Shown one piece after another: positions 9,079 through 27,725 of a stretch of DNA of 41,006 bases. The translations under genes were made by a program, and so were the position numbers. Each line of letters begins with the position of its first letter. Positions within the stretch are counted from its first letter, which is position 1. The DNA is from Verrucomicrobiota bacterium (lineage in GTDB: Bacteria > Verrucomicrobiota > Verrucomicrobiia > Opitutales > Opitutaceae), in NCBI GenBank assembly GCA_025361935.1, contig JANYJB010000060.1, positions 1-41,006 on the forward strand. Direction: 5' to 3'. The notes under the pieces are model-generated. The model made no database searches. It saw nothing but the letters and a program-made list of their open reading frames with translations, and was not told the DNA's origin.

Positions 9079-9151
9079 AAGTGCCTCTTGACCAATACTA
9101 GCAGCGGGCGTAAACCAGCAACCGTAAAAAAACTATAAAACAAGGAATCAA

Positions 9152-10105
9152 ATGAAAACCTCGCACCGAATAATTTTTATTTTGGCGGTGATGGGCGGTT
9201 TGCCTGCGGCAAACCTTTTTGGTCAGTTAAATTACGACTATGTTGAAAACTCTCCGGTCTCGGGGGGGGCAGGTGATGCCGCTGCGGATTGTTTTGCAAC
9301 CGGCGGACAGATGAACGCCGATGAACTTTCGACGCAGTTTGGAACCGAGTCGTCTGCTTCGGCTTCGTCGGGGGCGGTTGCTAAACCGAGTGATGTCGGC
9401 GTTGGCGCTCAACAGCAGGCCGGCGTCGAAGTGGGCGGAGGCTCGTTTCGATTCGGCGGCCAGAAGGCCGAATTGTATACGGTCAAGATTCCCTACAGCC
9501 GCAAACTCAACGAGCGCGCCACCTTGGAGCTTTCCCTGCCGTTTTCTTACACGGTTTATGACAAGGCCCTGTTTGGCATCAAAGACGCCAAGGCTTACGG
9601 CGGCGGGATCAACGCCGGCTACGCGTGGCAGGCTTTCCTCAAAAAAGACAACGTGCCCTATCGCTGGAAGATCACGCCTTCGACAGGTCTTTACTATCGC
9701 GATTCCGCTGATTTCCGCGAGGGCGCTTGGGTGGTCAACGCCGGTCTTTCCAGTTCTTTCGCCTGGCAGTTTTCCCCGGGCTGGGTCGTGAACATCGGCA
9801 ACGCCATCTCATTTGCCTGGAACAACGGCATCAAAAACTATCCCGATCCCATCCGCGACAACCAGCAGACGTTGAAAAACGGAATCCAGCTCTACCGTAT
9901 GATTGATCGCTGGACGCTGGCCGCATACATCATGGATACCGAGGCCCTGAACGAAACGTTCGTGGATTCCTACCAGACCTACGGGGTCAGCGCGGGTTTC
10001 AAAATCACCAAGACCAGCAGCCTGAAGGCCTCCTTGCTTTACGAAAATGGTAACGGGAGCTACCAGTCTGTGCGCGGCACGGTCGGCTCTACATGGCAGT
10101 TCTAG
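9152..10105 (+). CDS. Putative outer-membrane beta-barrel protein
   Basis: This is a 317-residue exported protein with a signal peptide (MKTSHRIIFILAVMGGLPAA, cleavage near residue 24). The rest is rich in alternating aromatic and polar residues and ends in a terminal phenylalanine (GSTWQF), the usual signal for outer-membrane barrel assembly. I do not recognise a specific family. A good ribosome binding site (AAGGAA) precedes the ATG. The gene diverges from the AsmA-like gene across 73 bp and overlaps or abuts a DUF481 gene downstream, suggesting a two-gene operon of barrel proteins. It could be a small porin or a structural outer-membrane protein; no substrate is evident. Confidence 0.75.
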   Translation: MKTSHRIIFILAVMGGLPAANLFGQLNYDYVENSPVSGGAGDAAADCFATGGQMNADELSTQFGTESSASASSGAVAKPSDVGVGAQQQAGVEVGGGSFRFGGQKAELYTVKIPYSRKLNERATLELSLPFSYTVYDKALFGIKDAKAYGGGINAGYAWQAFLKKDNVPYRWKITPSTGLYYRDSADFREGAWVVNAGLSSSFAWQFSPGWVVNIGNAISFAWNNGIKNYPDPIRDNQQTLKNGIQLYRMIDRWTLAAYIMDTEALNETFVDSYQTYGVSAGFKITKTSSLKASLLYENGNGSYQSVRGTVGSTWQF

Positions 10106-10131
10106 CACGTATGCCGACAAGCCTTCCCCTC

Positions 10132-11148
10132 ATGCGCGTGATCGCCAGCAGATGTTCACGGTTGATCGCACTTGGCTTTGTCGGCGTCTGCGGGCTTGTC
10201 GCCGCCGATGCACCGAGAAACACCCACCGGCTCGAACTCGCCAACGGCGAGGTGCTGGTGGGTGAACTCGTGTCGGGTGACGATAACGTCATCGTGTTTC
10301 GATCGCAAACTTGGGGCGAGCTGCGCGTGCCGAAGGGCGGCGCCAACCTGACCGTGATCGCGGCGCCCTCGGCCGAGCCCGCGTCGCAAGCCCCGGGCTG
10401 GGTAAAGACCGCCGCGCCCGCCTCGGCCGTGTCGGCGCCACCCGCGCCAAGCCCGGTCGTTGCCAGCGTGCCCGCCAAGCCCGCGCCGTCGCCGATCAAG
10501 TGGAAAAAAGCCCTCGAGGCCGGTTACAACTACCAGTCGCGCGGTTCCCTCGTCTCCACTACCTCGACGTATGTGCGCGCGGAAGTGACGCGCATAACCC
10601 CCACCGGCCTCGCCTCGCTGGACGGACGCTATCTTTACGGCGAACAGAACTCGCTGCGAAACACCGACAAGCTGGACGTGAACTTCAAGCTGCGGGAGCA
10701 GTTCCGAGGCCGGCTCGATATCCGCAACGACATGAGCTACGGTTACGACTACCTCAAAGAGCTTTCCCACCAATTTCAGGATGTGATCGGGTTTAGCTAC
10801 ACGGTCTTCAAGACCCCGCGTGCGTATTACATGGTCGGTCCGGGCTTCGCCGTCCAATACGCCGAGCCCAAGCTGGGCGACAGCGGGGTCAAATATCTGG
10901 GCGATGTCTCTCACGAATTATTCTGGAAGATCGTCGACCGTGTGACCTTCAAAAATAACGCCAGCTATCTCTTCAGCCCCGAGGATACGCAGGATTACCG
11001 GTTACGTGTGAACTCCGTCCTTTCAGGGCAGATCACGGAAAAAGTCAGTGTGAACCTGCGTTATGAATACGAGTTCGAGGCGCTCCGTCCGGTGGCAAAC
11101 GGTCGCTCTGATCACCGCATTTTCACCACGCTCGGTTATACTTTTTGA
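10132..11148 (+). CDS. DUF481 family outer-membrane protein
   Basis: The mature protein has two parts: an N-terminal segment (HRLELANGEVLVGELVSGDD) typical of small SH3-like or Sm-like exported domains, and, after a proline/alanine linker, a DUF481 beta-barrel (about residues 130-338) ending in aromatic GYTF. DUF481 proteins resemble salt-induced outer-membrane YdiY. The chosen ATG at 10132 gives the best signal peptide (MRVIASRCSRLIALGFVGVC, then GLVAADA). In-frame ATGs at 10093 and 10111 are possible; the first would overlap the preceding gene by 13 bases. No clear Shine-Dalgarno sequence distinguishes them. Its 3' end overlaps the convergent methyltransferase gene by 13 bp. Cotranscription with the upstream barrel protein is likely. 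Confidence 0.8.
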   Translation: MRVIASRCSRLIALGFVGVCGLVAADAPRNTHRLELANGEVLVGELVSGDDNVIVFRSQTWGELRVPKGGANLTVIAAPSAEPASQAPGWVKTAAPASAVSAPPAPSPVVASVPAKPAPSPIKWKKALEAGYNYQSRGSLVSTTSTYVRAEVTRITPTGLASLDGRYLYGEQNSLRNTDKLDVNFKLREQFRGRLDIRNDMSYGYDYLKELSHQFQDVIGFSYTVFKTPRAYYMVGPGFAVQYAEPKLGDSGVKYLGDVSHELFWKIVDRVTFKNNASYLFSPEDTQDYRLRVNSVLSGQITEKVSVNLRYEYEFEALRPVANGRSDHRIFTTLGYTF

Positions 11149-11885
11149 GAGCCGCTGGCGGCCATCGCGTGCCGCAGGTTGTCGCACACGATGGCGGCGG
11201 CGACCCCGGCGTTAAGCGATTCCGCCCCGCCATACCGAGGGATTGTCACGTAATACGTGACAAACTTGCGGACCGCATCCGAGAGGCCGCGGCCTTCGCT
11301 TCCGATGACAACGACCGCATCGCGGAGCGCGGGCAGCGTGTGGACATCCTCGCCGCCGAGGTCGCAGCCGAGCACGGGTGCGCCGGCGGAGGCGAGCGCG
11401 GCGGGCAACTCGGCGGTGAAGGTTTTAACACGCGCGAATGAGCCCATGCTGGCGTTGATCACCTTTTGAGAAAACAGGTCGGCGCAGTCTGGCGAAAGCA
11501 CCACGCGATCAAATGCGAACCAGTCGGCCACGCGCAGGAGCGTGCCCACGTTCCCCGGGTCCTGGATGCCGTCGAGTGCGAGCGTGAGTCCGTGCGCGAG
11601 CTCGCCGGCGGGAAGGGTTGCGCGCACGATGCGGCCCACGGCAAATACGTCCGAAGGCGTGGGGAGGTGGCTGATGCGAGCCATTTCATCCGGCGAGATT
11701 TCGACCGGCTGTGCGCCGCGCGGACTTTGCCACGCGGGCGTCGCGTAGATCTCGGCGAACACGGTGCCCGCGGCGAGCAGCTCGGCGACGACCTTGGGGT
11801 TTTCGACGACGTAGAGACCCTCCGTTTCGCGGTTCTTTTTTTCGCGCAGCGCACGCAGGCGGGAGAGCTGGGTCTTGGTCAGCAT
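11136..11885 (-). CDS. TrmH/SpoU family RNA 2'-O-methyltransferase
   Basis: This 249-residue SPOUT methyltransferase should 2'-O-methylate ribose in rRNA or tRNA using SAM. The three family motifs are visible: motif 1 at 104-123 (LDGIQDPGNVGTLLR), motif 2 at 193-202 (VIGSEGRGLS) and motif 3 at 215-232 (IPRYGGAESLNAGVAAAI), which form the trefoil knot and SAM pocket. An N-terminal substrate-binding domain (about 1-95) precedes them, as in RlmB/TrmH-like proteins such as TsnR. The reading frame stays open far upstream, but that part is antisense to the oxidoreductase gene; the family start is MLTKTQLSRL at 11885. It converges on the DUF481 gene with a 13-bp overlap. The exact target nucleotide cannot be deduced. 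Confidence 0.9.
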   Translation of the reverse strand: MLTKTQLSRLRALREKKNRETEGLYVVENPKVVAELLAAGTVFAEIYATPAWQSPRGAQPVEISPDEMARISHLPTPSDVFAVGRIVRATLPAGELAHGLTLALDGIQDPGNVGTLLRVADWFAFDRVVLSPDCADLFSQKVINASMGSFARVKTFTAELPAALASAGAPVLGCDLGGEDVHTLPALRDAVVVIGSEGRGLSDAVRKFVTYYVTIPRYGGAESLNAGVAAAIVCDNLRHAMAASGSQKV

Positions 11886-11996
11886 CCCGCGAGCAAGAGC
11901 GCGGGCGGCGCGGAAGGCAATTTTTAGGGAAGCGTTTTGTTTTTGCGCCCGGACGCGGGGGCTGCGATGGCTTGCGCACACTTCTTTTACCATTCT

Positions 11997-12239
11997 ATGA
12001 ACGTTAAAACCTTTTTTCGCACTTTGGGTTTCCTGCTCATCCTTCTGCTGGTGATTCTCATCAGCAAAGAGAACACGCAGTCTGCCGAGTTTCGCTTCCC
12101 GCTCCTGCTGGATAAACCCGTGCATGCCGCGGCGACCTTTGTGTATTTCGCGATGTTTGCGGTCGGCGTGGTCGGCGGCACATTGTTGAACGGTGGCGGT
12201 TCGGGTGGGGGAGCTGGGGCGTCCAAGGGGAAAAAGTAA
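11997..12239 (+). CDS. LapA-like (DUF1049) small inner-membrane protein
   Basis: This 80-residue protein has two predicted transmembrane segments (about 6-22 and 42-62) joined by a short loop, SAEFRFPLLLDKPVH, matching the layout of the LapA/DUF1049 domain. In Escherichia coli, LapA works with LapB to control LPS synthesis, but many bacteria carry stand-alone homologues of unknown function. The C-terminus is a glycine/alanine-rich tail ending in lysines. The start at 11997 (MNVKTFFRTL) is preferred over an upstream in-frame ATG at 11937, which adds residues unlike the family. No LapB neighbour is visible. Assignment rests on length, topology and loop similarity only. Confidence 0.65.
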   Translation: MNVKTFFRTLGFLLILLLVILISKENTQSAEFRFPLLLDKPVHAAATFVYFAMFAVGVVGGTLLNGGGSGGGAGASKGKK

Positions 12240-12266
12240 ACTCTCCGCGCCGCCTTGAGCTTTCCC

Positions 12267-13295
12267 ATGACCAAGACGCTTCGCTGGGGCATCCTCGCCA
12301 CGGGGAAAATCGCCGGGGTCTTCGCGCGCGGTGTCGCGGGCTCCCGCACCGGGCGGCTGGTCGCGGTCGGCAGCCGTTCGGTGGAGTCCGCGCGGCGTTT
12401 CGCGGTCGAGCATGGCATCGCGCCGGAACACGCGCACGGCAGTTATGAGGCGTTGCTCTCCGACCCGGAAGTGGAGGCAGTTTATATTTCCACGCCGCAT
12501 CCGCTGCACGAGGAGTGGGCGATGAAGGCCGCCGCCGCGGGCAAACACATCCTGTGCGAGAAACCGCTCACGCTCGATCTCGCCGCCGCGCGCCGCGTGG
12601 TCGAGGCGGCCCGCGCGCACGGCGTGTTGCTCATGGAGGCGTTCATGTATCGCTGCCATCCGCAGACGGCCCGCGTGCTCGAACTCGTCCGCTCCGGTGC
12701 GCTCGGGAAAGTCGGGCTCGTGCAGGCGGCGTTCAGTTTCAACGCGCCTTTCGATCCGCAGGGGCGCATCTGGGGCAACGCGCTCGGCGGCGGCGGCATT
12801 CTCGACGTGGGCGGCTATCCGGTTTCGTGGGCGCGACTCGTGGCCGGCGCGGTCGAGGAAAAACCGTTTCTCGACCCCGTGAGCGTTACTGGCACCGGTG
12901 TGCTCCATTCGCAGACGGGCGTGGACGCCTATGCCGCCGCGACGCTCGCATTCGCCAACGGCGTGATCGCCCAGGTCTCGTGCGGCGTGGGCCTGGCGCA
13001 GGAAAACGTCGTCCGCATCTACGGCACCGAGGGCTGGCTGCTCGTGCCTTCGCCCTACGTGGTGACCCGCGATCTCTCGTCCACGAAAATCCTGCTTCAC
13101 CGCGCGGGCGCGACTTCGCCCGAGGAGATCGTGATCACGTCCGACCGCACGATTTACGCTTACGAGGCCGATGCGTTTGCCGAGGCGCTCGCCGCCGGCC
13201 GGCGCGACGTGCCCGCGATGTCCAAGGCTGATACGTTGGGCAACATGGCCGTGCTCGATGCTTGGCTCCGCCAAGTCGGCGTGATTTACGCTTAG
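12267..13295 (+). CDS. Gfo/Idh/MocA family oxidoreductase
   Basis: This 342-residue NAD(P)-dependent oxidoreductase has an N-terminal Rossmann fold (RWGILATGKIAGVFA from residue 6) and the family motif EKP at 98-100, whose lysine (Lys99) takes part in catalysis. MYRCHPQ follows, as in dihydrodiol/xylose dehydrogenase-like members. The C-terminal half is the usual alpha/beta substrate-binding domain. Substrates in this family are mostly sugars, inositols or sugar acids and cannot be specified here. The ATG at 12267 is chosen over the TTG at 12255 because the fold begins directly after it. It follows the LapA-like gene by 27 bp on the same strand and may be cotranscribed. Confidence 0.9.
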   Translation: MTKTLRWGILATGKIAGVFARGVAGSRTGRLVAVGSRSVESARRFAVEHGIAPEHAHGSYEALLSDPEVEAVYISTPHPLHEEWAMKAAAAGKHILCEKPLTLDLAAARRVVEAARAHGVLLMEAFMYRCHPQTARVLELVRSGALGKVGLVQAAFSFNAPFDPQGRIWGNALGGGGILDVGGYPVSWARLVAGAVEEKPFLDPVSVTGTGVLHSQTGVDAYAAATLAFANGVIAQVSCGVGLAQENVVRIYGTEGWLLVPSPYVVTRDLSSTKILLHRAGATSPEEIVITSDRTIYAYEADAFAEALAAGRRDVPAMSKADTLGNMAVLDAWLRQVGVIYA

Positions 13296-13340
13296 TTGGC
13301 TTGGGAATCTTTTCATCTGCTTCACTTAACTCTTCCTCCT

Positions 13341-14549
13341 ATGAAACGCATCGCCTCCGCCTGTCTGTTGTTCGGACTGCTTGCCGTCATGGCCGTCCCG
13401 ATCTGGGCCGCCACCACTGCGGCAACGCCCGCTTCCGCTGAGGACAAGTCGCCCGCCTCGCCCGTCGCCCACGCCGTCAGCACCGTCACCGGACTCGCCA
13501 TCTCACCGCTGCTCGGCACCGGCGCGTATGGCGCCTACCAATGGTATGAGGCCAAGACGCCCGAGGCGAAAGCCAAGCTCCCTTGGTATGCGCAGACGAC
13601 CTTCTGGTTGCCCGCGCTCCTTCTCGTCGGTGCGTGCGCGGCGAAGGACAGTCTCGGCGCCGTGCTCCCCCCCGGCATGAAGAAGCCGCTCGATGTCCTC
13701 GAAACCGTCGAGAACAAGGCCACCGGTCTAGTCGCCGCCGGCGCGGTTGTGCCCTTCACCATGAACAGCCTTTCGAAGATGATCGCCGATTACCACGGCG
13801 CGCATACCGCGCTGCATCCGACCGGCCTCGCGACCATCGCGTCCATTGATTGGTCGTGGCTGCTCAACATCCTCACCATCCCGCTCGGCATCGCGATTTT
13901 TGCCGTGGTGTGGATGGCTTCGCACGCGATCAACGTCCTCATCCTCCTCAGCCCGTGGGGCGCGATCGACGCCGCGCTCAAAGGCGCGCGCACCGCGCTG
14001 CTCGGCCTCATCACCCTCACCGCCACGCTCAGCCCGTGGATAAGCGCGGCGCTTTCACTCGTTGTTATCCTCGTCGCCTGGCTGGTCGCCGGCTGGGCGT
14101 TCCGCCTCACGGTTTTCGGCTCCATTTTTTCGTGGGATTTCTTCACCGGACGCAAACGCCGCTTCACGCCCGCCGACCGTGAAAACAAACTGTTCTCCGG
14201 CGGCACCCTCACTAAGGAAGGCGTGCCCGTCCGCACCTACGGCCGCCTCGTCCACCAGCCCGAAAACGGAAAGCTGCTCTTCGTTTACAAACCCTGGCTC
14301 ATCCTCGCGGAACGCACCGTCACGGTCTCGCTCAACGCGCCTTCCGTGGGCAAAGGTCTGTTCTTCTCGACGGTGCGCGACGGTGATCGCACGTCCTTCA
14401 TCCTTCCGCCGCGCTATCGCGGACACGAGGAAGCCGTCGTCGGCATCTACAAGCTTTCGGGCGGCGTGCAGGACGCCGGTCTGCTGAAAGCCTGGGGCTC
14501 CCTCAAAGAGCTCTTCGGCGGCAGCGCGGCCAAGGCGCAGGTGGCGTGA
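13341..14549 (+). CDS. Polytopic membrane protein of unknown function
   Basis: I do not recognise this 402-residue protein. It has a signal-peptide-like N-terminus (MKRIASACLLFGLLAVMAVP), then hydrophobic segments near residues 88-108, 172-205 and 220-260, and a soluble C-terminal domain of about 130 residues that begins with RKRRFTPADRENKLFSGG. The chosen ATG at 13341 places the signal sequence at the N-terminus; an upstream TTG is in frame but unlikely. It lies between an oxidoreductase and an acetyltransferase on the same strand, with a 6-bp gap to the latter, so it may be part of an operon. Similar proteins may exist only within Verrucomicrobiota, but I cannot check that. Confidence 0.8.
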   Translation: MKRIASACLLFGLLAVMAVPIWAATTAATPASAEDKSPASPVAHAVSTVTGLAISPLLGTGAYGAYQWYEAKTPEAKAKLPWYAQTTFWLPALLLVGACAAKDSLGAVLPPGMKKPLDVLETVENKATGLVAAGAVVPFTMNSLSKMIADYHGAHTALHPTGLATIASIDWSWLLNILTIPLGIAIFAVVWMASHAINVLILLSPWGAIDAALKGARTALLGLITLTATLSPWISAALSLVVILVAWLVAGWAFRLTVFGSIFSWDFFTGRKRRFTPADRENKLFSGGTLTKEGVPVRTYGRLVHQPENGKLLFVYKPWLILAERTVTVSLNAPSVGKGLFFSTVRDGDRTSFILPPRYRGHEEAVVGIYKLSGGVQDAGLLKAWGSLKELFGGSAAKAQVA

Positions 14550-14555
14550 GCATCC

Positions 14556-14978
14556 ATGCCGCGCATCCGGCCCTTTTGTTTGGAAACGGATCACGCGGCG
14601 GTGGTCGCGCTCTGGACTTCGGTGCTCGGCTACGGCACGGCGCATAACGCTCCCGAGCTCTCCATCCGCAAAAAACTGGAGGCGGACGACGGCCTGTTCT
14701 TCGTAGCCGAAATCTCGGGGCGGCTGGCGGGCACGGTCATGGCCGGCTACGACGGCCATCGCGGCTGGATTTACTCCCTCGCGGTCGATCCCGGCTTGCG
14801 CCGGCAGGGCATCGGTCGCGCCTTGTTGTCGTGTGCGGAAGCCGCCCTCGACGAACGTGGCTGCGTGAAGATCAACCTGCAGATCGCCGACGGCAACGAG
14901 GGCGTGATCGGCTTCTACGAAAAGACCGGATACAGGGTTGAGCCCAGAACCTGCATGGGGAAACTCTTGCTCAAGTAA
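14556..14978 (+). CDS. GNAT family N-acetyltransferase, YpeA-like
   Basis: This is a compact 140-residue GCN5-related acetyltransferase that uses acetyl-CoA to acetylate an amine. The acetyl-CoA binding motif A is clear: SLAVDPGLRRQGIGRALL, with RRQGIG at residues 82-87. The C-terminal motif B contains GFYEKTGYRVE. Length and ordering resemble Escherichia coli YpeA and ribosomal-protein-alanine acetyltransferase-like enzymes, but the substrate is unknown. It starts 6 bp after the preceding membrane-protein gene and is followed by two small same-strand genes, so it may belong to a run of cotranscribed genes from 13341 to 15776. Confidence 0.9.
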   Translation: MPRIRPFCLETDHAAVVALWTSVLGYGTAHNAPELSIRKKLEADDGLFFVAEISGRLAGTVMAGYDGHRGWIYSLAVDPGLRRQGIGRALLSCAEAALDERGCVKINLQIADGNEGVIGFYEKTGYRVEPRTCMGKLLLK

Positions 14979-15003
14979 CGTCGGCGTCACCCTCCCAATT
15001 CTC

Positions 15004-15297
15004 ATGCTTCCCAACTACAAAAAGAAAGCCTTCAACTGCATCGGCGCTGCGCTCCTCCTGAGCGTAGCCGGTTTCGTGCTGACCCTTGTCAAGACGCCGC
15101 TTGCGCCGATGGCGCTGCCGGTGTCGCTTTCCGCGCTGCCGATCTTCGTGCTGGGCGCATGCGCCTTCGCCAAGGCGAAGGGTTATCATTGGGCGCTGGG
15201 CTTTTTAATCCTCACGTCGCTCCCCGGTCTGTTCGTGCTCATGCTGATTAAGGACAGGCATCCCGAAACGGACAACCGGAAAGGCGGCGGCCTCTAA
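15004..15297 (+). CDS. Small integral membrane protein of unknown function
   Basis: This 97-residue protein has a basic N-terminus (MLPNYKKKAFNC) and three probable transmembrane segments around residues 10-30, 35-55 and 60-80, ending in a charged tail. There is no recognisable family. The ATG at 15004 is preferred because the in-frame extension upstream overlaps the acetyltransferase gene. It sits 25 bp after the acetyltransferase and 23 bp before another small gene on the same strand. Confidence 0.65.
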   Translation: MLPNYKKKAFNCIGAALLLSVAGFVLTLVKTPLAPMALPVSLSALPIFVLGACAFAKAKGYHWALGFLILTSLPGLFVLMLIKDRHPETDNRKGGGL

Positions 15298-15320
15298 TTC
15301 AGCGACAACACCTGCCAAAT

Positions 15321-15776
15321 ATGAAAACCTTGATCCTCATCCTGCTGATTTTGAGCGCGTGGCTCGGGTATAAAACCTACACGCTTTCCGGGCAAAACAC
15401 CCGGTTGGAACTCAAGCTGGAGGAATCGCAGGCGAGTTTGAAGAAAACGGAAGCAAGCCTCGTGAACATCCAGTCGCAACTGGAGATCGCCGAGAAAAAA
15501 CTGGCTGAAGAAAGCGCGGCGGCTTCTCAAGGCGACACGCAATATCAGGTCTTCAAAAAAGAATACGTGGAGGGATCATTGGTGGATTCTGGAGAGAAGG
15601 CGCCGGATACAGGCCGTGCCGTGATGAAACGCCTGCCGCCGCACTGGCGGCTTTATCTCGTCGGAGTCCAGACCAAGCGCGAATACCCGGCCTTAGAAGT
15701 CCAAGAAACAGCCTACTCGCATTTCATCCAAGGCGGCATCTATACCCGGCTGGAACTCAACAGCGCCAAAAGGTGA
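15321..15776 (+). CDS. Hypothetical membrane-anchored coiled-coil protein
   Basis: The 151-residue product has one N-terminal membrane segment or uncleaved signal (MKTLILILLILSAWLGYKT). A heptad-like coiled coil follows at about residues 28-70 (rich in Leu, Glu and Lys), then a small C-terminal domain of about 70 residues. No family is recognised. It is the last gene of a same-strand run and converges on the nuclease-like gene at 15811-16509; a short palindrome lies between them at 15780-15798. A periplasmic membrane-anchored location is inferred from the sequence. Confidence 0.65.
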   Translation: MKTLILILLILSAWLGYKTYTLSGQNTRLELKLEESQASLKKTEASLVNIQSQLEIAEKKLAEESAAASQGDTQYQVFKKEYVEGSLVDSGEKAPDTGRAVMKRLPPHWRLYLVGVQTKREYPALEVQETAYSHFIQGGIYTRLELNSAKR

Positions 15777-15779
15777 CGG

Positions 15780-15798
15780 CGGACAGGTGCGCTGTCCG
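15780..15798. terminator. Hairpin between convergent genes, possible bidirectional terminator
   Basis: CGGACAG (15780-15786) pairs perfectly with CTGTCCG (15792-15798) around a five-base loop. It lies in the 34-bp gap between two convergent gene ends. No U-tract follows on either strand, so terminator activity is uncertain. Confidence 0.35.
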
Positions 15799-15810
15799 TA
15801 GTTGATTGGT

Positions 15811-16509
15811 TCAAGGCGTCTGTTTGAGCAGGCGCGGCGCAGACGCGACCTCGCCGGGAAACGGCACGCCCCAGAGCGAAGGCGTCTCTTTTGGCGCGGG
15901 ATCGGCGTCGGGGGCGAGGAATTTAAACACGTCCTCGACGCGCAGGCTGCATTGCAGGCGGCGCTGGGTTTTTGAATCAATTTTGGGATTCACCACGATG
16001 ACCGACTCGGTGAAAGGCGGGGCGTTTTTGATCGCCTGCGCTTGCCGTCGCGCCTCGGCGGGCGAGAGGGATCGGTCTTTGATGACGCTGTCGAGGCGCT
16101 CCAAATCGGCGCGGGTCACGGGGCCCCAGAGTTTGCGCCATGCGTCCGGCTCGATGCGCGGCGCGACGATGTTGACGAAGCGTTTCCGCTCACCGTCCTG
16201 CCGCCAGTAGCCGATCACGAGGATGAACGGCTCGGCGATGTCGTATTGGCGGAGCGCGTCGCCGAGATCGACGGGCGTGCGCTCCTTGGCGGCCTTGGGA
16301 TTCACGGGCACGCCGCCATGAAGTTTGTTGTTGGCGGCGGGGATGTCCCACTTCTGCGTGTAGCTGGGCGGCTTGTAGCCGTCGAAAAACGTGTTGCGGA
16401 TCCACTCTTCGAAAACGAGACCGTGTTTCTGCACCTCTTGGGCCGAAGTCGGCCCGAGGGCGGCAAAAAAGAAAACAAGCCCGAGCAAAAGTGCGCGGAG
16501 TATTTTCAT
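15811..16509 (-). CDS. Secreted protein resembling a type II restriction endonuclease
   Basis: The 232-residue product starts with a clear signal peptide (MKILRALLLGLVFFFAALGP, cleavage after TSA near residue 23), so it is exported. The mature part contains segments I associate with some PD-(D/E)XK type II restriction endonucleases: FEEWIRNTFF, KWDIPA, PVNPKAAK followed by TPVDLGDALRQYDI, FILVIGYWRQ and NPKIDSKTQRRLQCSLR. Candidate catalytic residues are Glu34/35, Asp55, Asp81 and Lys72/75. A restriction enzyme should not be secreted and no methyltransferase accompanies it, so this is more likely a degradative or repurposed nuclease, or a fold relative. Its ATG overlaps the stop of the lipoprotein gene (ATGA), in a three-gene operon headed by deoC. 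Family assignment is from memory. Confidence 0.6.
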   Translation of the reverse strand: MKILRALLLGLVFFFAALGPTSAQEVQKHGLVFEEWIRNTFFDGYKPPSYTQKWDIPAANNKLHGGVPVNPKAAKERTPVDLGDALRQYDIAEPFILVIGYWRQDGERKRFVNIVAPRIEPDAWRKLWGPVTRADLERLDSVIKDRSLSPAEARRQAQAIKNAPPFTESVIVVNPKIDSKTQRRLQCSLRVEDVFKFLAPDADPAPKETPSLWGVPFPGEVASAPRLLKQTP

Positions 16510-17420
16510 GGCGCGGCGGGCCGGTAGCGCAGGATCGCGGTGCCGGCGCCCTCGGAGGTGAGATAGAGCGTGCGGCTGTCTTGCGCGAAGGCGACCGCCT
16601 CGGCCTGCGTGAGGCCGTGCGGCGGGAGCACCTGCGGCTTGCGGGAAAGTGCGGCGGTCCATGTCTCGCCGGGTGCGCGCGGGAAAAGACAAACGTCTCC
16701 GTAAGTCAAAACGACCGCCGCCGAGCCGTCGGGCGCGAAGTCCATGGCAGTGGGATCATCGCGGTAGTGTCCGCCCGGAATGGGAAGCAGCTTCTGAAGG
16801 GCGGTAGGCTTGGGGAGATTCTGGATGCGGGCCATAGGCTGCGCCATGCAGGGGCCGGGAGACGTTGGCCGCAGGGGAACCGTTAAAAGCACCGGAGGCT
16901 TGGTGCGTTTGGTGAGCAGATAAACCAGTCCGGCCTTAGCGTCCACGGCGACGGCTTCGCAGTCGTGCGGACCGTCGGGGTAGAGCACGGGGATTTTCCA
17001 AGCGACGGGCACGGTGAGTTCCTCGAAGGGGATGAGTTGTGACGGGTCGGGCTCGGCGACGACGTAGAGCGCGCAATCGCGCCGGATGCCGCGGTTGTCG
17101 CCGGTGTCGGCGATGAGGAGCCACGCCTTGCCGTCGAGTTCGAAGGAGGCGACGTCCTCCCAGTCGGAGTTGCGCACGCCCGCGATGCGCAGGTCGCCGC
17201 GACGCACGCCGTTGGGCTCGATGCCGTAGAGGACGGGTTGTCCGCCGCTGTCGTTGTGGGTCCAGAACAGGCGCGGGTCGCGGCGGGAGGCGGCGAGCCC
17301 GCTCGACTCGGTGATGCCCGCAGGCAGGTGTCCCGCGACTCTGGGATCCTGATAAGGCGGGCTCTGCGTGCAGCCCGAGAAGAGCAGCACGAAGAGCGGG
17401 AGAAAACGGCGCGCACGCAT
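16506..17420 (-). CDS. Lipoprotein with beta-propeller-like repeats
   Basis: This 304-residue exported lipoprotein has a lipobox ending in LFSGC, with lipidated Cys17. The mature protein contains repeated strand patterns with WTHNDSGG, DWEDVASF and IADTGDN, resembling a family of bacterial secreted beta-propeller proteins with conserved Asp-rich loops. No enzymatic activity is certain. The start at 17420 puts the lipobox near the N-terminus; the open frame continues upstream but is antisense-like to deoC. It starts 2 bp after the deoC stop, and its own stop overlaps the nuclease-like gene start by four bases, so all three genes are almost certainly translated from one message. Confidence 0.8.
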   Translation of the reverse strand: MRARRFLPLFVLLFSGCTQSPPYQDPRVAGHLPAGITESSGLAASRRDPRLFWTHNDSGGQPVLYGIEPNGVRRGDLRIAGVRNSDWEDVASFELDGKAWLLIADTGDNRGIRRDCALYVVAEPDPSQLIPFEELTVPVAWKIPVLYPDGPHDCEAVAVDAKAGLVYLLTKRTKPPVLLTVPLRPTSPGPCMAQPMARIQNLPKPTALQKLLPIPGGHYRDDPTAMDFAPDGSAAVVLTYGDVCLFPRAPGETWTAALSRKPQVLPPHGLTQAEAVAFAQDSRTLYLTSEGAGTAILRYRPAAP

Positions 17421-17422
17421 TT

Positions 17423-18127
17423 TTAATAGCTGCCGGTAGCGTTTGTTGGCGCGCCGGTGCCGGAGAGTTCCGCGAGGATGGCGGCGGCATTCGAGGTGCC
17501 GAGCCGGGTCGCGCCCGCGGCGATGAGCGCGCGGGCGTCGGCGAGGGTCTTGATGCCGCCGGAGGCTTTGAGCGCGATGCTGGTTTTGCGCGCGGCGGCC
17601 CATGCGGCGATGTCGGCGACCTTGGCTCCGGCGGTGCCGAAGCCGGTGGAGGTTTTGATGAAGTTGGCACCGGCGTCCTCGCAGATTTTAAGTGCCGCGA
17701 GCTTGCGAGCGTCGTCGAGGAAACACGTTTCGACGATGACTTTGATGAGCTGGCCGTTGCCGTGGGCGAGGCGGGTGAGTGCGGCGACTTCGCTGGCGAC
17801 TTCGGCGGCGCGACCTTCGAGCAGCGCGGGATAGTTCATCACGATGTCTACCTCGTGCGCTCCGGCGCGGTGCGCGGCGGTGATCTCGGCGGCCTTGGCG
17901 TCGGTGGAAAAACGTCCGCTGGGAAACCCGATGACGGTGCCGATTTTAAGGCCGGTGCCGGCGAGGATGCGCGCGGCGAGCGGCACGCTGGCCGGATAGA
18001 TCATGACGCAGGCGAAACGGTGGACGGCGGCTTCGCGGCAGAGTTGATCGATGTCGGCCGCGGTGGCGTCCAGCCGAAGGTTGGTCGAGTCGAGGGTCGC
18101 GGCCATTTGGGCGGGCGTAAACGTCAT
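17423..18127 (-). CDS. deoC: Deoxyribose-phosphate aldolase
   Basis: DeoC cleaves 2-deoxy-D-ribose-5-phosphate to acetaldehyde and glyceraldehyde-3-phosphate in the cytoplasm, the last step of deoxynucleoside catabolism. The 234-residue class I aldolase keeps the key residues: Asp94 in EVDIVMN, the Schiff-base Lys158 in FIKTSTGF and Lys187 in ALKASGGI. The ATG at 18127 is preferred; an upstream in-frame ATG at 18148 adds seven residues without a better ribosome site. It heads an operon with a lipoprotein (2-bp gap) and a secreted nuclease-like protein, and diverges from a sensor kinase gene across 111 bp. A thymidine/pyrimidine-nucleoside phosphorylase and a ribokinase lie 2-4 kb away and complete the expected pathway. 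Confidence 0.96.
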   Translation of the reverse strand: MTFTPAQMAATLDSTNLRLDATAADIDQLCREAAVHRFACVMIYPASVPLAARILAGTGLKIGTVIGFPSGRFSTDAKAAEITAAHRAGAHEVDIVMNYPALLEGRAAEVASEVAALTRLAHGNGQLIKVIVETCFLDDARKLAALKICEDAGANFIKTSTGFGTAGAKVADIAAWAAARKTSIALKASGGIKTLADARALIAAGATRLGTSNAAAILAELSGTGAPTNATGSY

Positions 18128-18238
18128 GGACAGGAGCCTAGCCGACATCCGGTGCGCGGAAAGCCGCTTTTTGCCGCGCGGCGGCTTTGCCTTGCTTGGA
18201 GATGGGGGGCGTGAAGACTTGTCGTTACGGAAAACGCC

Positions 18239-20104
18239 ATGCGACTTCTAAACTGTAAACGCTGGGGCCATGTTTTCGCTGGTGCGGCCTTGCTGTTTAT
18301 TTTCTTTGGCGGACTCCGTGGGGCAGACGCGTCAAAAACTGCAGGTTTAGACCAGGTGACGCTTCAGCTGAAGTGGCGGCATCAGTTTCAATTTGCGGGC
18401 TATTACGCGGCCATTGCCAAGGGCTACTATCGAGAGGCTGGGCTTGAGGTGAACCTGATCGAGGCGACGCCGGGGCAGGATCCTGCGGACGCAGTGTTTG
18501 CGGGGCGGGCGGAATTCGGCGTGGGCACCTCCGACATCCTGCTGCTGCGAGGCCAGGGAAAGCCGGTGGTCGTGCTGGCGACGATTTTCCAGCACTCGGC
18601 GCTCGTGCTGCTCGCGCGCAAGGCCTCCGACGTGCACGATCTGCAGGACTTGCATGACAAGGCGATCATGATCGAGCCGCTTTCGGCCGAATTGTTCGCC
18701 TACTTCAGGGACGAGGGCGTTAACCCGGCGAAGCTCCACGTGGAAAACCACACTTTCGATGTGAAGGATCTCGTCAGCGGACGGGTGGCCGCGATGTCCG
18801 GTTATGCGACCGACGAGCCCTTTGTGCTGGATCAGCAGCGGTTCGAGTATCTGGCCTTCACCCCGCGCGCGGGCGGTATCGATTTCTACGGGGACAATCT
18901 TTTCACCACCGAGGAGCAGATTCGCCTGCATCCGGCGCGCGTGAAGGCGTTTCGCGAGGCGAGCCTGAGGGGCTGGGACTATGCGCTCGCCCATCCCGCA
19001 GAGATCATCGACCTGGTCCTGCGGGACTACGGCTGCAAGAGCAGCCGCGCGCACTTGGTGTTCGAGGCGGAACACACCGCGCTGCTCATGCACCCCGGTC
19101 TGATCGAGGTGGGGCACATGAACCCCGGGCGCTGGCGGCACATGGCGGACACGTATGCGGATTTCGGGATGCTGCCGAAAGATTTCCCCTTGGACGGTTT
19201 CCTTTACGATCCTGACCCCAAACCCGACTTGCGCTGGGTTTACTGGTTGCTCGCGGGTCTTGCGGCGGTCGCGGTCGGTGCGCTCGGTTGGCTGCTGCCG
19301 CTCATGCGACTGAACCGGCGGTTGCGCGAGGAGATCAAGACCCGCCGGAAGGCGGAGGAGGCGCTGCGATGCGCAAAGGAAAAGGCGGAAGAGGCGGACC
19401 GGGCTAAGAGCCGTTATCTGGCCGTGATGAGCCACGAGGTGCGCACTCCGATCGGCGGCGTGATAGGGCTGGTCAATCTCTTGCAGGAGGAGCCGCTGAC
19501 TCCCGATCAACGCGAGACGCTCAACCTGATCGAGCATTCGGCGGAGAGCCTGCTCAAGCTTATCAGCGGTCTGCTTGACCATGCGCAGCTCGGCGAAGGG
19601 CGGATGGAGCTGGAGGTGGCGCCGCTGGCGGTCGGGGCGTTCACCACGGAGATATGCGAACTCTTCTGCGGCTCTGCGCAGGCGAAGGCGCTGACGCTCG
19701 ACTGTCGGGTGGATGCGGCCGTGCCTGCGTGCATTCACACTGACGGCCCTCGGCTGAGGCAGATTCTGAGCAATCTTATTTCCAACGCGCTCAAGTTCAC
19801 CTCGCAGGGTGGCGTCGCGGTCAAAGTGATGGCGGGGGCGCCCGGACGCGTGCGCTTCAGCGTGCATGACACGGGAATGGGCATCACGGACGAGCAGCAG
19901 GCGCGCTTGTTCACGCCTTACGTCCAGGCCGACCCGTCCATCGCGCGAAAATTTGGCGGCACAGGGCTGGGCCTGTCCATCTCGCGCGAACTTGCGAAGC
20001 TTCTCGGCGGCGACATCACGGTCGCGAGCGCGCCCGGAAAAGGCACGGTTTTCACCGTGGAGATCGTGAACCATCCCGCTCCTGTCAGCGGGGCGCCGGT
20101 TTAG
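18239..20104 (+). CDS. Sensor histidine kinase with NMT1/THI5-like periplasmic binding domain
   Basis: This is a 621-residue membrane sensor kinase. A signal sequence (residues 1-31) leads into a periplasmic NMT1/THI5-like solute-binding domain (about 37-310, with LKWRHQFQFAGYYAAIAKG near its start). A transmembrane helix follows (about 338-356), then a coiled linker, HisKA with the phosphoacceptor His399 in MSHEVRTP, and HATPase_c with GTGLGLSIS. The family binds pyrimidine-like compounds in thiamine salvage and various other ligands, so the signal here is unknown. There is no receiver domain and no adjacent response regulator; an orphan regulator lies at 33331-33942. The gene sits between deoC and the ribokinase/phosphorylase genes, which makes a nucleoside- or pyrimidine-related signal a reasonable guess. 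It overlaps the convergent kinase gene by 20 bp. Confidence 0.9.
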   Translation: MRLLNCKRWGHVFAGAALLFIFFGGLRGADASKTAGLDQVTLQLKWRHQFQFAGYYAAIAKGYYREAGLEVNLIEATPGQDPADAVFAGRAEFGVGTSDILLLRGQGKPVVVLATIFQHSALVLLARKASDVHDLQDLHDKAIMIEPLSAELFAYFRDEGVNPAKLHVENHTFDVKDLVSGRVAAMSGYATDEPFVLDQQRFEYLAFTPRAGGIDFYGDNLFTTEEQIRLHPARVKAFREASLRGWDYALAHPAEIIDLVLRDYGCKSSRAHLVFEAEHTALLMHPGLIEVGHMNPGRWRHMADTYADFGMLPKDFPLDGFLYDPDPKPDLRWVYWLLAGLAAVAVGALGWLLPLMRLNRRLREEIKTRRKAEEALRCAKEKAEEADRAKSRYLAVMSHEVRTPIGGVIGLVNLLQEEPLTPDQRETLNLIEHSAESLLKLISGLLDHAQLGEGRMELEVAPLAVGAFTTEICELFCGSAQAKALTLDCRVDAAVPACIHTDGPRLRQILSNLISNALKFTSQGGVAVKVMAGAPGRVRFSVHDTGMGITDEQQARLFTPYVQADPSIARKFGGTGLGLSISRELAKLLGGDITVASAPGKGTVFTVEIVNHPAPVSGAPV

Positions 20105-21044
20105 TTTTTAGGAACCGGACGATTTCTCGGCGCGTCGGCATCGCGGGGGCCGTGCCGGGTTTGGTGACGGAGAGCGCGGCCACGGCGACGCCGAAACGGG
20201 CCGCCGCCACGATGTCGCCGTTGAATTTCACGAAGCCCGCCGAAAAGCCGCCGACGAAGGCGTCGCCGGCGCCGGTGGTGTCCACGGCCTTGACCTTGTG
20301 CGCGGGGATGAAAACGGGGCCGGATGCCTGCGACACGAGACAGCCGCGTTTGCCGAGGGTGACGATCACGACGGCCGGCCCGAGCGCGCGACACAGGGCG
20401 TGAAGCGCGTCGTTGGAAAGCAGGCTCAGCGCGGTCTCGGTGAAGGTTTTGTGGCCGGTGTCAGGGATGAGGTTTACGAGAGCGGTGAACTCGGCTTCGT
20501 TGGGGATGAGCACGTCAACGTGTTTGAGAATCGCCGGATCGAAATCCAGTCGCATGGGTGCGGGGTTGAGCACGGTCGTGACGCTGGCGGCGCGTGCGGT
20601 TTTTAAAACAAACGCGGTGGCGGCGAGGTTCGATTCGAGTTGGGCGACGACGATTTTTGCGGCGGCGATGGCTTTGGCGTCGATGTCGGTTTTGGCGAGG
20701 TGGGCGTTGGCGCCTAAGGCGACGACGATCTCGTTTTGGCCGGCGGCGTTGACGAGGATGGCGGCGGTGCCGGTCGCGTGTTTCGGTTTTTCAACGAAAC
20801 TCGCGGCGATGCCATCGGCGGCGTAAAAGGCCCTTGCTTCGGAAGCAAAGGCGTCACGGCCGACTGCGCCGATGAAGAGCGTGGACGCGCCCGCGCGTCC
20901 CGCCGCCACGGCCTGATTGGAGCCTTTGCCGCCGGGGCCGGTGGCGAAGGTGCCGATGACGGTTTCGCCCGGCTTGGGGAAGGAGACGCAGCGCCACGTC
21001 AGATCTTGGACAAAGCTGCCGACGACTACGACTTGGGGTTGCAT
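20085..21044 (-). CDS. rbsK: Ribokinase, PfkB family
   Basis: This 319-residue PfkB carbohydrate kinase most resembles ribokinase, which phosphorylates ribose with ATP to ribose-5-phosphate. Visible are the N-terminal substrate motif GGKGSNQA (38-45), TGTAAILVNAAGQNEIVVAL (91-110), PNEAE (181-185) and the catalytic/anion-hole motif DTTGAGDAF (255-263; Asp261 is the base). A deoxyribokinase is an alternative, supported by the nearby deoC and phosphorylase genes. The ATG at 21044 fits the family better than an upstream TTG-type extension. It diverges from the phosphorylase gene across 79 bp and its 3' end overlaps the sensor kinase gene by 20 bp. Confidence 0.9.
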   Translation of the reverse strand: MQPQVVVVGSFVQDLTWRCVSFPKPGETVIGTFATGPGGKGSNQAVAAGRAGASTLFIGAVGRDAFASEARAFYAADGIAASFVEKPKHATGTAAILVNAAGQNEIVVALGANAHLAKTDIDAKAIAAAKIVVAQLESNLAATAFVLKTARAASVTTVLNPAPMRLDFDPAILKHVDVLIPNEAEFTALVNLIPDTGHKTFTETALSLLSNDALHALCRALGPAVVIVTLGKRGCLVSQASGPVFIPAHKVKAVDTTGAGDAFVGGFSAGFVKFNGDIVAAARFGVAVAALSVTKPGTAPAMPTRREIVRFLKTKPAPR

Positions 21045-21123
21045 GAAACCACGTTGCCGGATTTCGGGCATGGGGCAAGTCGGGGGCTTGCGCAGGGGTT
21101 GGCGGGGCGGCAGTTTTTCAGAA

Positions 21124-22440
21124 ATGAACCCGTCGTTATTCCCTCAGCACGTTATCGCGCGGAAACGCGACGGCCATGCGCTGACGCGGGAGGAAATCAC
21201 GGCGTTCGTGCGCGGGGCGACCGATGGCTCGTGGGCCGACTACCAGTTGAGCGCAATGCTCATGGCGGTTTTCCTGCGCGGGATGAACACGGCCGAGACG
21301 GCGGCGTTGACCGACGCAATGATGCGTTCGGGCGTGGTGGCGGATTTGTCGTCGGTGCGCGCACCGAAGGTGGACAAGCATTCGACGGGCGGCGTCGGCG
21401 ACAAGGTTTCCATCCACCTCGCGCCGATGGTCGCGGCCTGCGGCGTGGCGGTGCCGATGATCAGCGGGCGCGGTCTCGGGCACACCGGCGGCACGCTCGA
21501 CAAGCTGGAGTCGATCCCCGGATTTCGCGTCGGACTATCGATGGAGGAATACCGTGCGCAGGTGGGCCAGGTCGGTTGCGCGCTCATCGGGCAAACCAAG
21601 GAACTGGCACCGGCCGACAAAAAGCTCTACGCGCTGCGTGATGTGACTGCGACGGTCGAGTGCCTCCCGCTGATCTGCGCGTCGATCATGTGCAAAAAAC
21701 TCGCCGAGGGCATCGACGCGCTGGTGCTCGACGTGAAGTTTGGCGCGGGCGCCTTCATGAAGGGCATGGATGATGCGCGCGCGCTGGCGCAGGCGATGGT
21801 GGACATCGGCAACGCCATGGGAAAACCGACTCGCGCGCTGCTGACCGCGATGGATCAGCCGCTCGGTCGTGCCGTGGGCAACGCGCTCGAAGTCGCGGAG
21901 AGTGTGGCGTGTTTGAAGGGTGAAGGACCGGAAGATTTAATGGATGTCACGTATGCGCTCGGGGAGCAGATGCTGCTGCTCGCTGGTGTGGTTAAAAATA
22001 CCGGAGAGGCGCGGGTGAGGCTGGCGAAATCCATTTCAAGCGGTGCGGCGCTCGCGAAGTTTCGCGAGATTGTGGCCGCGCAGGGTGGCGACGGCCGCGT
22101 GTGCGAAGCGCCGGAAGCACTGTTGCCGCGAGCGAAGTTTCAACGCGAGTTGCGCGCGAACAAGGCGGGATGGGCGGCGGAAGTTGTCGCGATGGATGTG
22201 GCGCTGGCTGCCTTGCAGCTGGGCGCGGGGCGCAGTCGGGCCGAGGATGCGGTGGACCCGGCGGTTGGAATCGCGCGACTGGTCAAGGTGGGCGAGCGGG
22301 TGGAGGCCGGCGCGGTGATCGCGTGCATCCATGCGAACGATCAGGCGCGGCTGGAAACCGCGGCGCACATGCTTGGGGAAGCGATCTTGATCGACGGAGC
22401 GCCGGTTACGGCGCCTCGGTTGATCGAGGAAGTGATCTGA
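21124..22440 (+). CDS. deoA: Thymidine / pyrimidine-nucleoside phosphorylase
   Basis: This 438-residue enzyme catalyses reversible phosphorolysis of thymidine or other pyrimidine nucleosides to a free base and (deoxy)ribose-1-phosphate in the cytoplasm. Diagnostic motifs are KHSTGGVGDKVS (85-96), which binds phosphate, and SGRGLGHTGGTLDKLES (114-130). The C-terminal domain (about 340-438) completes the family layout and length. Discrimination between strict thymidine phosphorylase (DeoA) and broader pyrimidine-nucleoside phosphorylase (Pdp) is not possible by eye. The start at 21124 is preferred; upstream in-frame sequence is antisense-like to the kinase gene. Together with deoC and the ribokinase it forms a nucleoside-use region. 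Confidence 0.95.
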   Translation: MNPSLFPQHVIARKRDGHALTREEITAFVRGATDGSWADYQLSAMLMAVFLRGMNTAETAALTDAMMRSGVVADLSSVRAPKVDKHSTGGVGDKVSIHLAPMVAACGVAVPMISGRGLGHTGGTLDKLESIPGFRVGLSMEEYRAQVGQVGCALIGQTKELAPADKKLYALRDVTATVECLPLICASIMCKKLAEGIDALVLDVKFGAGAFMKGMDDARALAQAMVDIGNAMGKPTRALLTAMDQPLGRAVGNALEVAESVACLKGEGPEDLMDVTYALGEQMLLLAGVVKNTGEARVRLAKSISSGAALAKFREIVAAQGGDGRVCEAPEALLPRAKFQRELRANKAGWAAEVVAMDVALAALQLGAGRSRAEDAVDPAVGIARLVKVGERVEAGAVIACIHANDQARLETAAHMLGEAILIDGAPVTAPRLIEEVI

Positions 22441-22442
22441 CG

Positions 22443-22515
22443 AGGTGGAGCGCGTTGTCCCCAACGCGCTTCGTGGCGGGCCCGGAAAGCGTCTTGGGGT
22501 CAAGACGCTCCACCT
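22443..22515. repeat. REP-like double hairpin between convergent genes
   Basis: Two short perfect hairpins are arranged in tandem: AGCGCGTTG (22449-22457) with CAACGCGCT (22462-22470), and AGCGTCTTG (22488-22496) with CAAGACGCT (22501-22509), each with a four-base loop. The whole unit is bracketed by a perfect 10-bp inverted repeat, AGGTGGAGCG (22443-22452) and CGCTCCACCT (22506-22515). It fills the 81-bp gap between the ends of the phosphorylase and ABC-F genes. This is the architecture of REP/BIME elements, and could also terminate both transcripts. Only one copy is in the window. Confidence 0.75.
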
Positions 22516-22521
22516 TCGGAA

Positions 22522-24393
<1,872 letters not shown>

Positions 24394-24455
24394 GGAGAAC
24401 GGGACACCAAAGCGGTCGCCTTACCGCCGGTCAACGCCTCATCCTGATGGTGTGA

Positions 24456-25043
24456 TCAAGCCGGTTTCTGGACGGCGAGCGCGAGCAGGGTGGCCGCCGT
24501 GTCGCGGGCGGAGCGCGCCGGCGCGGTGGAGCCGGTGGCCTGGGCGGCGACAATCGCGCCGTCGATGAGCAGGCTCAGCGTGTTGGCGAGCGCCGCAGGA
24601 TTGTGGGCGCCTGCCTGACTGCACAACTCGGTGAGAGCGCCTTGCATGGCGACTTTATGGCGCCACGCGGCTTGGTGGATGGGGTGCCTGGGGTCGGGAT
24701 ATTCGCTGAGCGCGCGGATGAAGGCGCAGCCGTTAAAATCCGTGGAGCCAAACCATCTTTCCAACCAATCAAAAACGGAGAGGAGCTTTTCCGCAGCCGA
24801 GCCGTCGGTCGCGTTGACCTGATCGTTGATGGAAGCTCGCAGCTCGCAGTCGCGTTTTTCTAGGACGCCGATGATGAGCTCATCCTTGGAGGCGAAGTGG
24901 TTATAAAGCGTCATCTTCGCGACGCCCGCTTCGGCGATGAGAGTGTCGATGCCGACTGCCCGGTAGCCATCACGGTAAAAAAGCCGCCAAGCCGTGGCCA
25001 TGAGATGATCGCGTTTGGGGGATGAAATGACGGCTTCGGCCAT
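24456..25043 (-). CDS. TetR/AcrR family transcriptional repressor
   Basis: This 195-residue regulator has the TetR helix-turn-helix near the N-terminus (IAEAGVAKMTLYNHFASKDE, residues 37-56) and a C-terminal ligand domain containing FNGCAFIRALSEYPDP, seen in many AcrR/NemR-like proteins that respond to electrophiles or aromatic compounds. The ATG at 25043 is preferred over a TTG at 25064. It diverges from the NTF2-like gene, and two near-identical palindromes lie between them at 25086-25099 and 25119-25132. It therefore probably represses itself and the divergent NTF2-like/AhpD-like pair. The inducer is unknown. Confidence 0.9.
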   Translation of the reverse strand: MAEAVISSPKRDHLMATAWRLFYRDGYRAVGIDTLIAEAGVAKMTLYNHFASKDELIIGVLEKRDCELRASINDQVNATDGSAAEKLLSVFDWLERWFGSTDFNGCAFIRALSEYPDPRHPIHQAAWRHKVAMQGALTELCSQAGAHNPAALANTLSLLIDGAIVAAQATGSTAPARSARDTAATLLALAVQKPA

Positions 25044-25085
25044 GGGTTTACCGTGATGAAACAAGAGAGTAGCGCAAGAAAATAT

Positions 25086-25099
25086 ACAGACCTGTCTAT
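25086..25099. promoter_or_regulatory. Putative TetR operator 1
   Basis: Read on the minus strand, AGACAGGTCTGTAT (25097-25084) matches 12 of 14 positions of operator 2. Its centre is about 35 bp from that of operator 2, inside the tetR/NTF2-like divergent gap. Confidence 0.6.
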
Positions 25100-25118
25100 T
25101 TTGTGCTTGCGAATAAAT

Positions 25119-25132
25119 AGACAGATCTGTCT
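25119..25132. promoter_or_regulatory. Putative TetR operator 2
   Basis: AGACAGATCTGTCT is a perfect 14-bp palindrome in the divergent gap between tetR and the NTF2-like gene. Its resemblance to other TetR-family boxes and the second copy nearby support binding by the adjacent regulator. Confidence 0.7.
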
Positions 25133-25159
25133 TGTGCGTGTTGTCGCCTACTAAAAACC

Positions 25160-25588
25160 ATGAACACGCGTCCGCCGCTTCCGCCCTTTACCGAAGAAAC
25201 CGCCCGCCAAAAAATCCAGGCGGCCGAAGATGCCTGGAACAGCCGCGACCCGGAACGCGTGGTGCTCGCCTACACGGTCGATACCGAGTGGCGCAACCGC
25301 TCCGACTTCGTGAACGGCCGCGCGGCGGTTGTGGAGTTTTTGCGTGGAAAGTGGGAGCGTGAGTTGGACTACCGCTTGCGCAAGGAGCTGTGGGCGTTTC
25401 AGGACAACCGCATCGCGGTGCGTTTCGAATACGAATTCCACGATGCTTCCGGACAGTGGTGGCGCGCCTATGGCAACGAGAACTGGGAGTTCGACGAGTT
25501 CGGCCTCATGCGTCGCCGCTTCGCGAGTATCAACGATCTCAAGATCGCCGAGTCCGGCCGCAATTTCCGCTGGGCGCGCCCCGCCTGA
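25160..25588 (+). CDS. DUF1348 / NTF2-like (SnoaL-like fold) protein
   Basis: This 142-residue single-domain protein matches the DUF1348 subgroup of NTF2-like proteins. Characteristic features include [18 protein letters not shown] (22-39), [18 protein letters not shown] and the end [15 protein letters not shown]2-like folds form a cone-shaped pocket and may bind or transform small hydrophobic molecules, but the activity of this subgroup is not established. It is divergent from the TetR gene, preceded by two operators, and followed by an AhpD-like gene, so it probably belongs to a TetR-controlled response to a small molecule or oxidant. Confidence 0.85.
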
Positions 25589-25674
25589 AAATCCGTCGCT
25601 GCGCACACATCCCTTTCCCGCCGGACACTCTGGCGGACACAAAACAAAACCCGTCCGTTAAAACCAAAACCATC

Positions 25675-26223: not shown

Positions 26224-26244
26224 CCTTCGCCTCCGTCCCTGCTC

Positions 26245-26289
26245 ATCCGGCCCGGTTTGCGTGAACGTTACACGACGGGCCGGATTTTT
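26245..26289 (+). terminator. Rho-independent terminator after the AhpD-like gene
   Basis: ATCCGGCCC (26245-26253) pairs with GGGCCGGAT (26277-26285), followed by a T-tract (26285-26289). The 23-base loop can form a short inner CGTG/CACG pair. It separates the TetR-linked unit from the deoxyhypusine-synthase-like gene. Confidence 0.8.
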
Positions 26290-26334
26290 GTGGCGTCGGC
26301 TTTCGGGGCCGCTGTAAGTCTGGGGGCTACTTTT

Positions 26335-27715: not shown

Positions 27716-27725
27716 AAATATTTTA

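Follow-up and report, generated by a model that had tools for sequence, protein, structure and literature searches.

Restriction enzymes are normally thought to require a methylase for protection of the host. Solitary restriction endonucleases are reviewed in PMC3488263; PacI is an example given there, and its host reportedly survives because the genome is without PacI sites; a passage of PMC4081073 describes it as an HNH enzyme with an 8 bp site. The four-letter word GTAC, which concerns us here, is the target of other described systems. The chlorella virus NY-2A methyltransferase M.CviQI produces GTm6AC, and restriction glycosylases of the PabI type recognize the same word, as stated in the relevant passages of PMC4357717. 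The mentions of CviQI that we found in PMC7248222, PMC12700378 and PMC8845596 concern CviQII instead. A phrase search of the open-licence literature for restriction enzymes described as periplasmic, secreted, extracellular or exported returned no paper, and GTAC combined with cyanophages, Opitutaceae or Verrucomicrobiota gave nothing relevant among the matches listed.

The gene described here encodes a restriction endonuclease-like (RE-like) protein and lies in a 41,006 nt stretch of DNA, analysed at its full length and referred to below as the window. Its situation resembles that of PacI, as the passages cited describe it, in that no partner methyltransferase was found beside the gene and the host genome is almost without the probable site. 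However, the 8 bp site of PacI is rare by chance, whereas here a 4 bp word is nearly gone from genomes of 2.5–6 Mb in many species, and the RE-like protein additionally has a predicted signal peptide. With CviQI it would share the word GTAC, but the CviQI system includes a methylase and is not exported; the PabI-type enzymes would likewise share the word and differ in their base-excision chemistry. The cyanophage family phrog_6892 is homologous over residues 25–195, is likewise a stand-alone gene, and GTAC is lost in several of its carriers, although its members have no signal peptide and are only ~27–30% identical. Finally, a restriction-modification (R-M) system at locus L072, in a genome of ~1.3 Mb, has a homologous REase (30% identity; PADLOC REase_II, 2.6e-13), but this protein is without a signal peptide and adjoins two methyltransferases.

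Organization of the locus

Table 1. Features of the window, with the basis on which each was assigned.
Feature	Position	Strand	Basis
deoC, deoxyribose-phosphate aldolase	17423..18127	-	TIGR00126 E 1.1e-63
Lipoprotein gene, 304 aa	16506..17420	-	Lipobox-like LFSGC by eye
RE-like gene, 232 aa	15811..16509	-	PADLOC REase_II, phrog_6892, 71 related loci, GTAC loss in carriers
Predicted signal peptide, residues 1-23	16441..16509	-	Cleavage after A23 judged by eye
Conserved mature domain of RE-like protein	15832..16431	-	Invariant residues, alignment A6
GTAC-free whole window	1..41006	.	0 found vs 58.7 expected

The tight packing of deoC, the lipoprotein gene and the RE-like gene that had been predicted is real. 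All three are on the minus strand, with a 2 bp gap between deoC and the lipoprotein gene and a 4 bp ATGA overlap (16509-16506) between the lipoprotein gene and the RE-like gene. DeoC itself is unremarkable, and the lipoprotein has no match above cut-off in Pfam or NCBIfam. Between pfkB and the opposite-strand deoC, at 18239-20104 (+), the window encodes an NMT1/THI5-like domain fused to a histidine kinase (HisKA, HATPase_c).

In a survey of 69 relatives, with at least 3 kb of upstream sequence present for 60 of them and L016 left out as a near copy of L017, an orthologous deoC was inside the fetched flank in six, and just two loci, the window and L002, had a gap of less than 100 bp behind the lipoprotein gene. 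Because deoC is near the gene in so few relatives and the short gap is confined to these two loci, we regard the linkage of deoC to the RE-like gene as lineage-specific and the operon as incidental. The lipoprotein is not a general partner of the RE-like gene and instead accompanies deoC in close relatives. The neighbours of the RE-like gene are variable, and the idea of a conserved operon partner was rejected, as the commonest neighbour clusters reach just 18 of 70 loci.

The original prediction had tied the enzyme to deoxyribose use and, through deoC, to the scavenging of extracellular DNA. With deoC in the flank of 6/69 relatives, the gene-order survey gives no conserved linkage, an outcome that the prediction had itself named as counting against it, and neither suggestion is borne out; scavenging alone would also leave the loss of GTAC in carriers unexplained, and we have dropped the deoC-linked form as the main reading. 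More generally, an enzyme that fragments extracellular DNA for food or transformation would be in keeping with the signal peptide and with the codirectional deoC of the window and those six relatives. However, an enzyme that cuts at a four-base site is ill suited to general DNA degradation, the deoC linkage is rare, and the purge of GTAC would have no explanation unless the enzyme leaks too; we consider this an unlikely role. The observation nevertheless stands, and its interest lies in an apparently exported restriction-like enzyme together with the loss of its probable target word, not in scavenging.

Homology and conserved residues of the RE-like protein

The suggested resemblance to restriction endonucleases holds up well. 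The RE-like protein matches PADLOC REase_II (PDLC03460, E 6.5e-9) and phage family phrog_6892 (E 2.2e-18), and three homologues match REase_II with E values from 2.6e-13 to 1.5e-16; there is no match in Pfam or NCBIfam. By homology, therefore, the protein clearly belongs with the type II restriction endonuclease families. A pattern-seeded scan of genome contigs gave 71 related loci, nearly all labelled Verrucomicrobiota (the exceptions by label are L016, L023, L040 and L072). A match was present in 34 of 141 relatives: 27 intact (G058 is counted here for its whole 233 aa frame, L091), four broken, one running off the edge of its contig (G039), and two distant (G100 and G128). No relative of the protein was found in plasmid searches or in viral contigs scanned with alignment A1. 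In locus L019 a second, truncated copy (10313-10702, +), which matches residues 108-227, is located ~4 kb away from the intact gene.

The full-length set comprises 91 frames from 101 loci, 76 of them distinct. A 68-row alignment has long invariant stretches, especially NPK and QRRLQCS toward the C-terminus, and 17 residues are invariant in all 39 diverse sequences of alignment A6 (numbering shifted by 24): Q27, H29, G30, E34, T51, D55, K72, Q104, K109, K176, D178, Q182-R184, Q186, C187 and R226. The original prediction had counted missing catalytic residues as evidence against itself, but the candidate catalytic residues are kept across the homologues. The dN/dS of the RE-like gene is 0.37 for the pair with L002 and 0.14 for the pair with L003 (deoC gives 0.25 and 0.28 for the same pairs), and the gene is therefore under purifying selection.

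Two structure models of the protein are confident (pLDDT 94.0 and 93.2), and the best match in a viral structure library is A7RBT9 (E 4.8e-12, TMq 0.78), which we take to be a chlorovirus protein, perhaps R.CviQI or a near relative of it, and which would add to the likeness with CviQI. In the PDB fold search DpnI came first for both models but was not significant (E 0.018 and 0.033, TM ~0.2), and PDB sequence searches gave chance-level matches or none. Within the D...(D/E)xK motif D55 and K72 are invariant, and the acidic position is N in this group and S in the phages and L072; D84 or a neighbour might substitute for the absent acidic residue. The homology to REase families is clear, and the protein may be a PD-(D/E)XK nuclease, although its first PDB match falls short of significance.

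The N-terminal signal

Hydropathy supports the proposed signal peptide. A simple hydropathy cut is passed by 74 of the 76 distinct full-length relatives, and the N-terminal segment has an AxA-like end in 68/76; the two that fail, L036 and L044, have doubtful starts. The N-terminus is divergent in sequence yet signal-like across the relatives. The phage and R-M homologues, in contrast, are all below the cut (5/5), and the four translated cyanophage homologues start at the equivalent of residue 25 (E25). The 76 signal-bearing sequences cluster in a tree, although with low node support (0.21). The RE-like protein is thus predicted to be Sec-exported.

Search for an adjoining methyltransferase

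Comparison with three methyltransferases, together with a motif scan, found no methyltransferase adjoining the RE-like gene in the window or in loci L001-L071, in agreement with what had been noted for the window. By these comparisons the cognate methyltransferase of a type II R-M system is lacking at the scanned loci. The motif scan of L001-L071 listed 13 ORFs, most of them unrelated by eye and one, in L029, a possible methyltransferase. This 1217 aa ORF (1081-4731, -), located upstream of an intact RE-like gene, contains an NPPF motif and is possibly type IIG-like. Elsewhere, the genome of the window has one methyltransferase-like match away from the gene (62 residues, 40%), and in phage L223 the homologue adjoins an ORF with an NPPF motif.

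An ordinary R-M system whose GTAC methyltransferase is undetected or unlinked, with the loss of GTAC reflecting usual R-M avoidance, would accommodate the methyltransferases beside the L072 homologue, the match elsewhere in the genome, and the existence of unpurged carriers, G053 and G163 among them, in which GTAC and the gene coexist. It is harder to reconcile with the signal peptide and the lack of a methyltransferase near the gene at the scanned loci, and a methylated word would need no near-total loss. We therefore regard it as improbable.

Loss of GTAC from carrier genomes

GTAC is the sole tetranucleotide absent from the 41,006 nt window (0 against 58.7 expected). In pooled samples of 20 kb or shorter per genome there are two GTACs in 20 carriers (327 kb) versus 294 in 20 non-carriers (316 kb), which makes GTAC the extreme among 136 tetranucleotides (ratio 0.009, with CTAG next at 0.74). 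Non-carrier genomes are mostly under the GTAC expectation as well (0.54 pooled).

As a genome-wide measure we used the ratio SSGTACSS/SSCATGSS, in which the reversed word is the control, for 141 genomes. The median is 0.0027 in the 27 intact-gene genomes of the family, five of them at zero, versus 0.285 in the family's 58 gene-less genomes, of which four are below 0.03; as the genomes are related, p values overstate this difference. A host all but lacking the presumed recognition word, much as reported for PacI, is found in the 23 of 27 intact-gene genomes that are below 0.03, apart from the exceptions and the 23S rRNA sites described below. The four broken-gene genomes have ratios of 0.052-0.136, and 26 of the 27 intact genomes are below the lowest of these. 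Such intermediate values would be expected if GTAC reappears once the gene has been lost. The contrast recurs within genera: genus g1 has 0-10 sites in seven carriers, 213 in the broken-gene genome and 190-743 in five genomes without the gene, and carriers compare with genomes without the gene as 36 vs 810 sites in g4, 8 vs 1581 in g7 and 82 vs 955 in g22.

There are exceptions in both directions. Four intact-gene genomes are above the purge level (G053, G082, G033 and G060), and G053 has 446 sites (ratio 0.16) despite an intact gene. Among 28 further intact carriers, reached through their loci, ten are below 0.03 and the other 18 range up to 0.217. Residue changes were considered as the cause of this intact-but-unpurged state and rejected, since only L041 (Q104F, K109R) of 17 such carriers is altered at the listed key residues. 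Conversely, G014 (7 SSGTACSS sites) and G062 (3), of genus g3, are purged, and neither sequence nor profile search found a homologue of the RE-like gene in them; another GTAC enzyme or recent gene loss are possible explanations. G023 and G088 also have low GTAC without the gene, but their assemblies are 67% and 72% complete. In the unmasked rRNA regions of three carriers the GTACs are all within 23S rRNA (G075 6/6, G063 8/8, G085 3/3), and carrier chromosomes are therefore not site-free. The corresponding 16S check gave matches in 5/20 genomes, most 16S genes being apparently masked or missing.

The purge of genus g3, and the lowered GTAC of most gene-less genomes, would be expected if the word were lost for another reason (shared mutational bias, phage pressure or some other GTAC enzyme), with the gene no more than associated with the loss. 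We think this very unlikely, as the contrasts recur within four genera, values are intermediate where the gene is broken, and three carrier cyanophages have no GTAC in 80 kb (see below).

A model for host protection

We propose, as the probable explanation, that the RE-like protein is an exported, methylase-free, GTAC-specific type II-like endonuclease, and that the host is spared by export and by loss of the word, so that GTAC marks foreign DNA. In this model the signal peptide would cause most of the enzyme to act outside the cytoplasm, and export would be the first protection of the host. The second would be the erasure of GTAC from nearly the whole chromosome, save for functionally fixed 23S rRNA copies, by a slow purge driven by rare leakage of the enzyme into the cytoplasm. 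DNA bearing GTAC could then be recognized as foreign without a chemical mark, and the target would be incoming foreign DNA, whether phage, transforming or released. We infer cleavage, GTAC specificity, export, leakage-driven purge and the foreign-DNA target from what was computed, namely the REase homology, the conserved residues, the hydropathy signal, the finding of no adjoining methyltransferase, and the loss of GTAC tracking gene presence and integrity. We lean, with less assurance, toward the further view that this is a modification-free self/non-self system, in which self is the near-absence of a four-letter word, the activity of the enzyme keeps the genome clean, and the clean state decays after the gene breaks. 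The enzyme may serve in defence, uptake control, as a weapon or in scavenging.

Several points tell against the preferred explanation. Complete export would give little reason to purge; no homologue was found in the purged genus g3, G053 is unpurged despite its intact gene, and depletion is partial in 18 of the 28 further carriers; 23S rRNA retains GTACs, two carrier cyanophages are undepleted, the metagenomic phage loci show no separation, and the PD-(D/E)XK fold lacks a significant match; and the methyltransferase-like match elsewhere in the genome may represent a distant protective methylase. As for a weapon, a released enzyme would damage the DNA of competitors while kin would be immune through their GTAC-free genomes. 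The signal peptide and the word loss, which would serve as immunity, are compatible with this, and a passage of PMC3488263 speculates that solitary restriction enzymes could be used against other bacteria. However, there is no delivery domain, the neighbour survey found no conserved neighbour, and the 23S GTACs persist, and we see little likelihood of such a use. If the exported-endonuclease explanation is correct, many species seem to protect themselves by export and by loss of the word from genomes of 2.5–6 Mb, which opens to test the evolution of chromosomes from which one word is barred and the effect of restriction outside the cytoplasm. The absence of a word may perhaps also betray an enzyme that has escaped notice.

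GTAC in cyanophages with a homologue

Homologues occur in 28 cyanophage or marine virus records, where one is unannotated and the others are annotated as hypothetical or unknown; our analysis suggests a function for family phrog_6892, which has so far been without one. Between eight gene-carrying and ten gene-less cyanophages (80 kb each) GTAC is the most different of 136 tetranucleotides, with a geometric mean observed/expected of 0.079 versus 0.537 (p 0.0066 uncorrected). It is entirely missing from the 80 kb of S-SM1, S-RIM44 and Syn1, three of the eight carriers, although the proteins of S-RIM44 and Syn1 are identical, so that these two do not count as independent cases. The carrier P-HM1 has 74 GTACs versus 208 in gene-less P-HM2. 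Depletion is not seen in two carriers, ACG-2014f (0.58) and S-SSM5 (0.45). ACG-2014f, like gene-less P-SSM2, encodes a relative of the methyltransferase-like protein of L223. Metagenomic phage loci do not separate carriers (below 0.1 in 11/56 vs 4/23, Fisher p 1.0; other palindromes differ equally), but their background, 79 loci of which four had the gene and 23 were kept after overlap removal, is a poor control in which the gene status of the fragments is uncertain.

Other words are also missing from the 80 kb cyanophage samples (L238-L309). CCGG is at zero in most, GCGC in P-HM1, P-HM2, P-SSM2 and P-SSM4, CGCG in P-SSM2, TTAA in S-ShM2 and CTAG in S-SM2.
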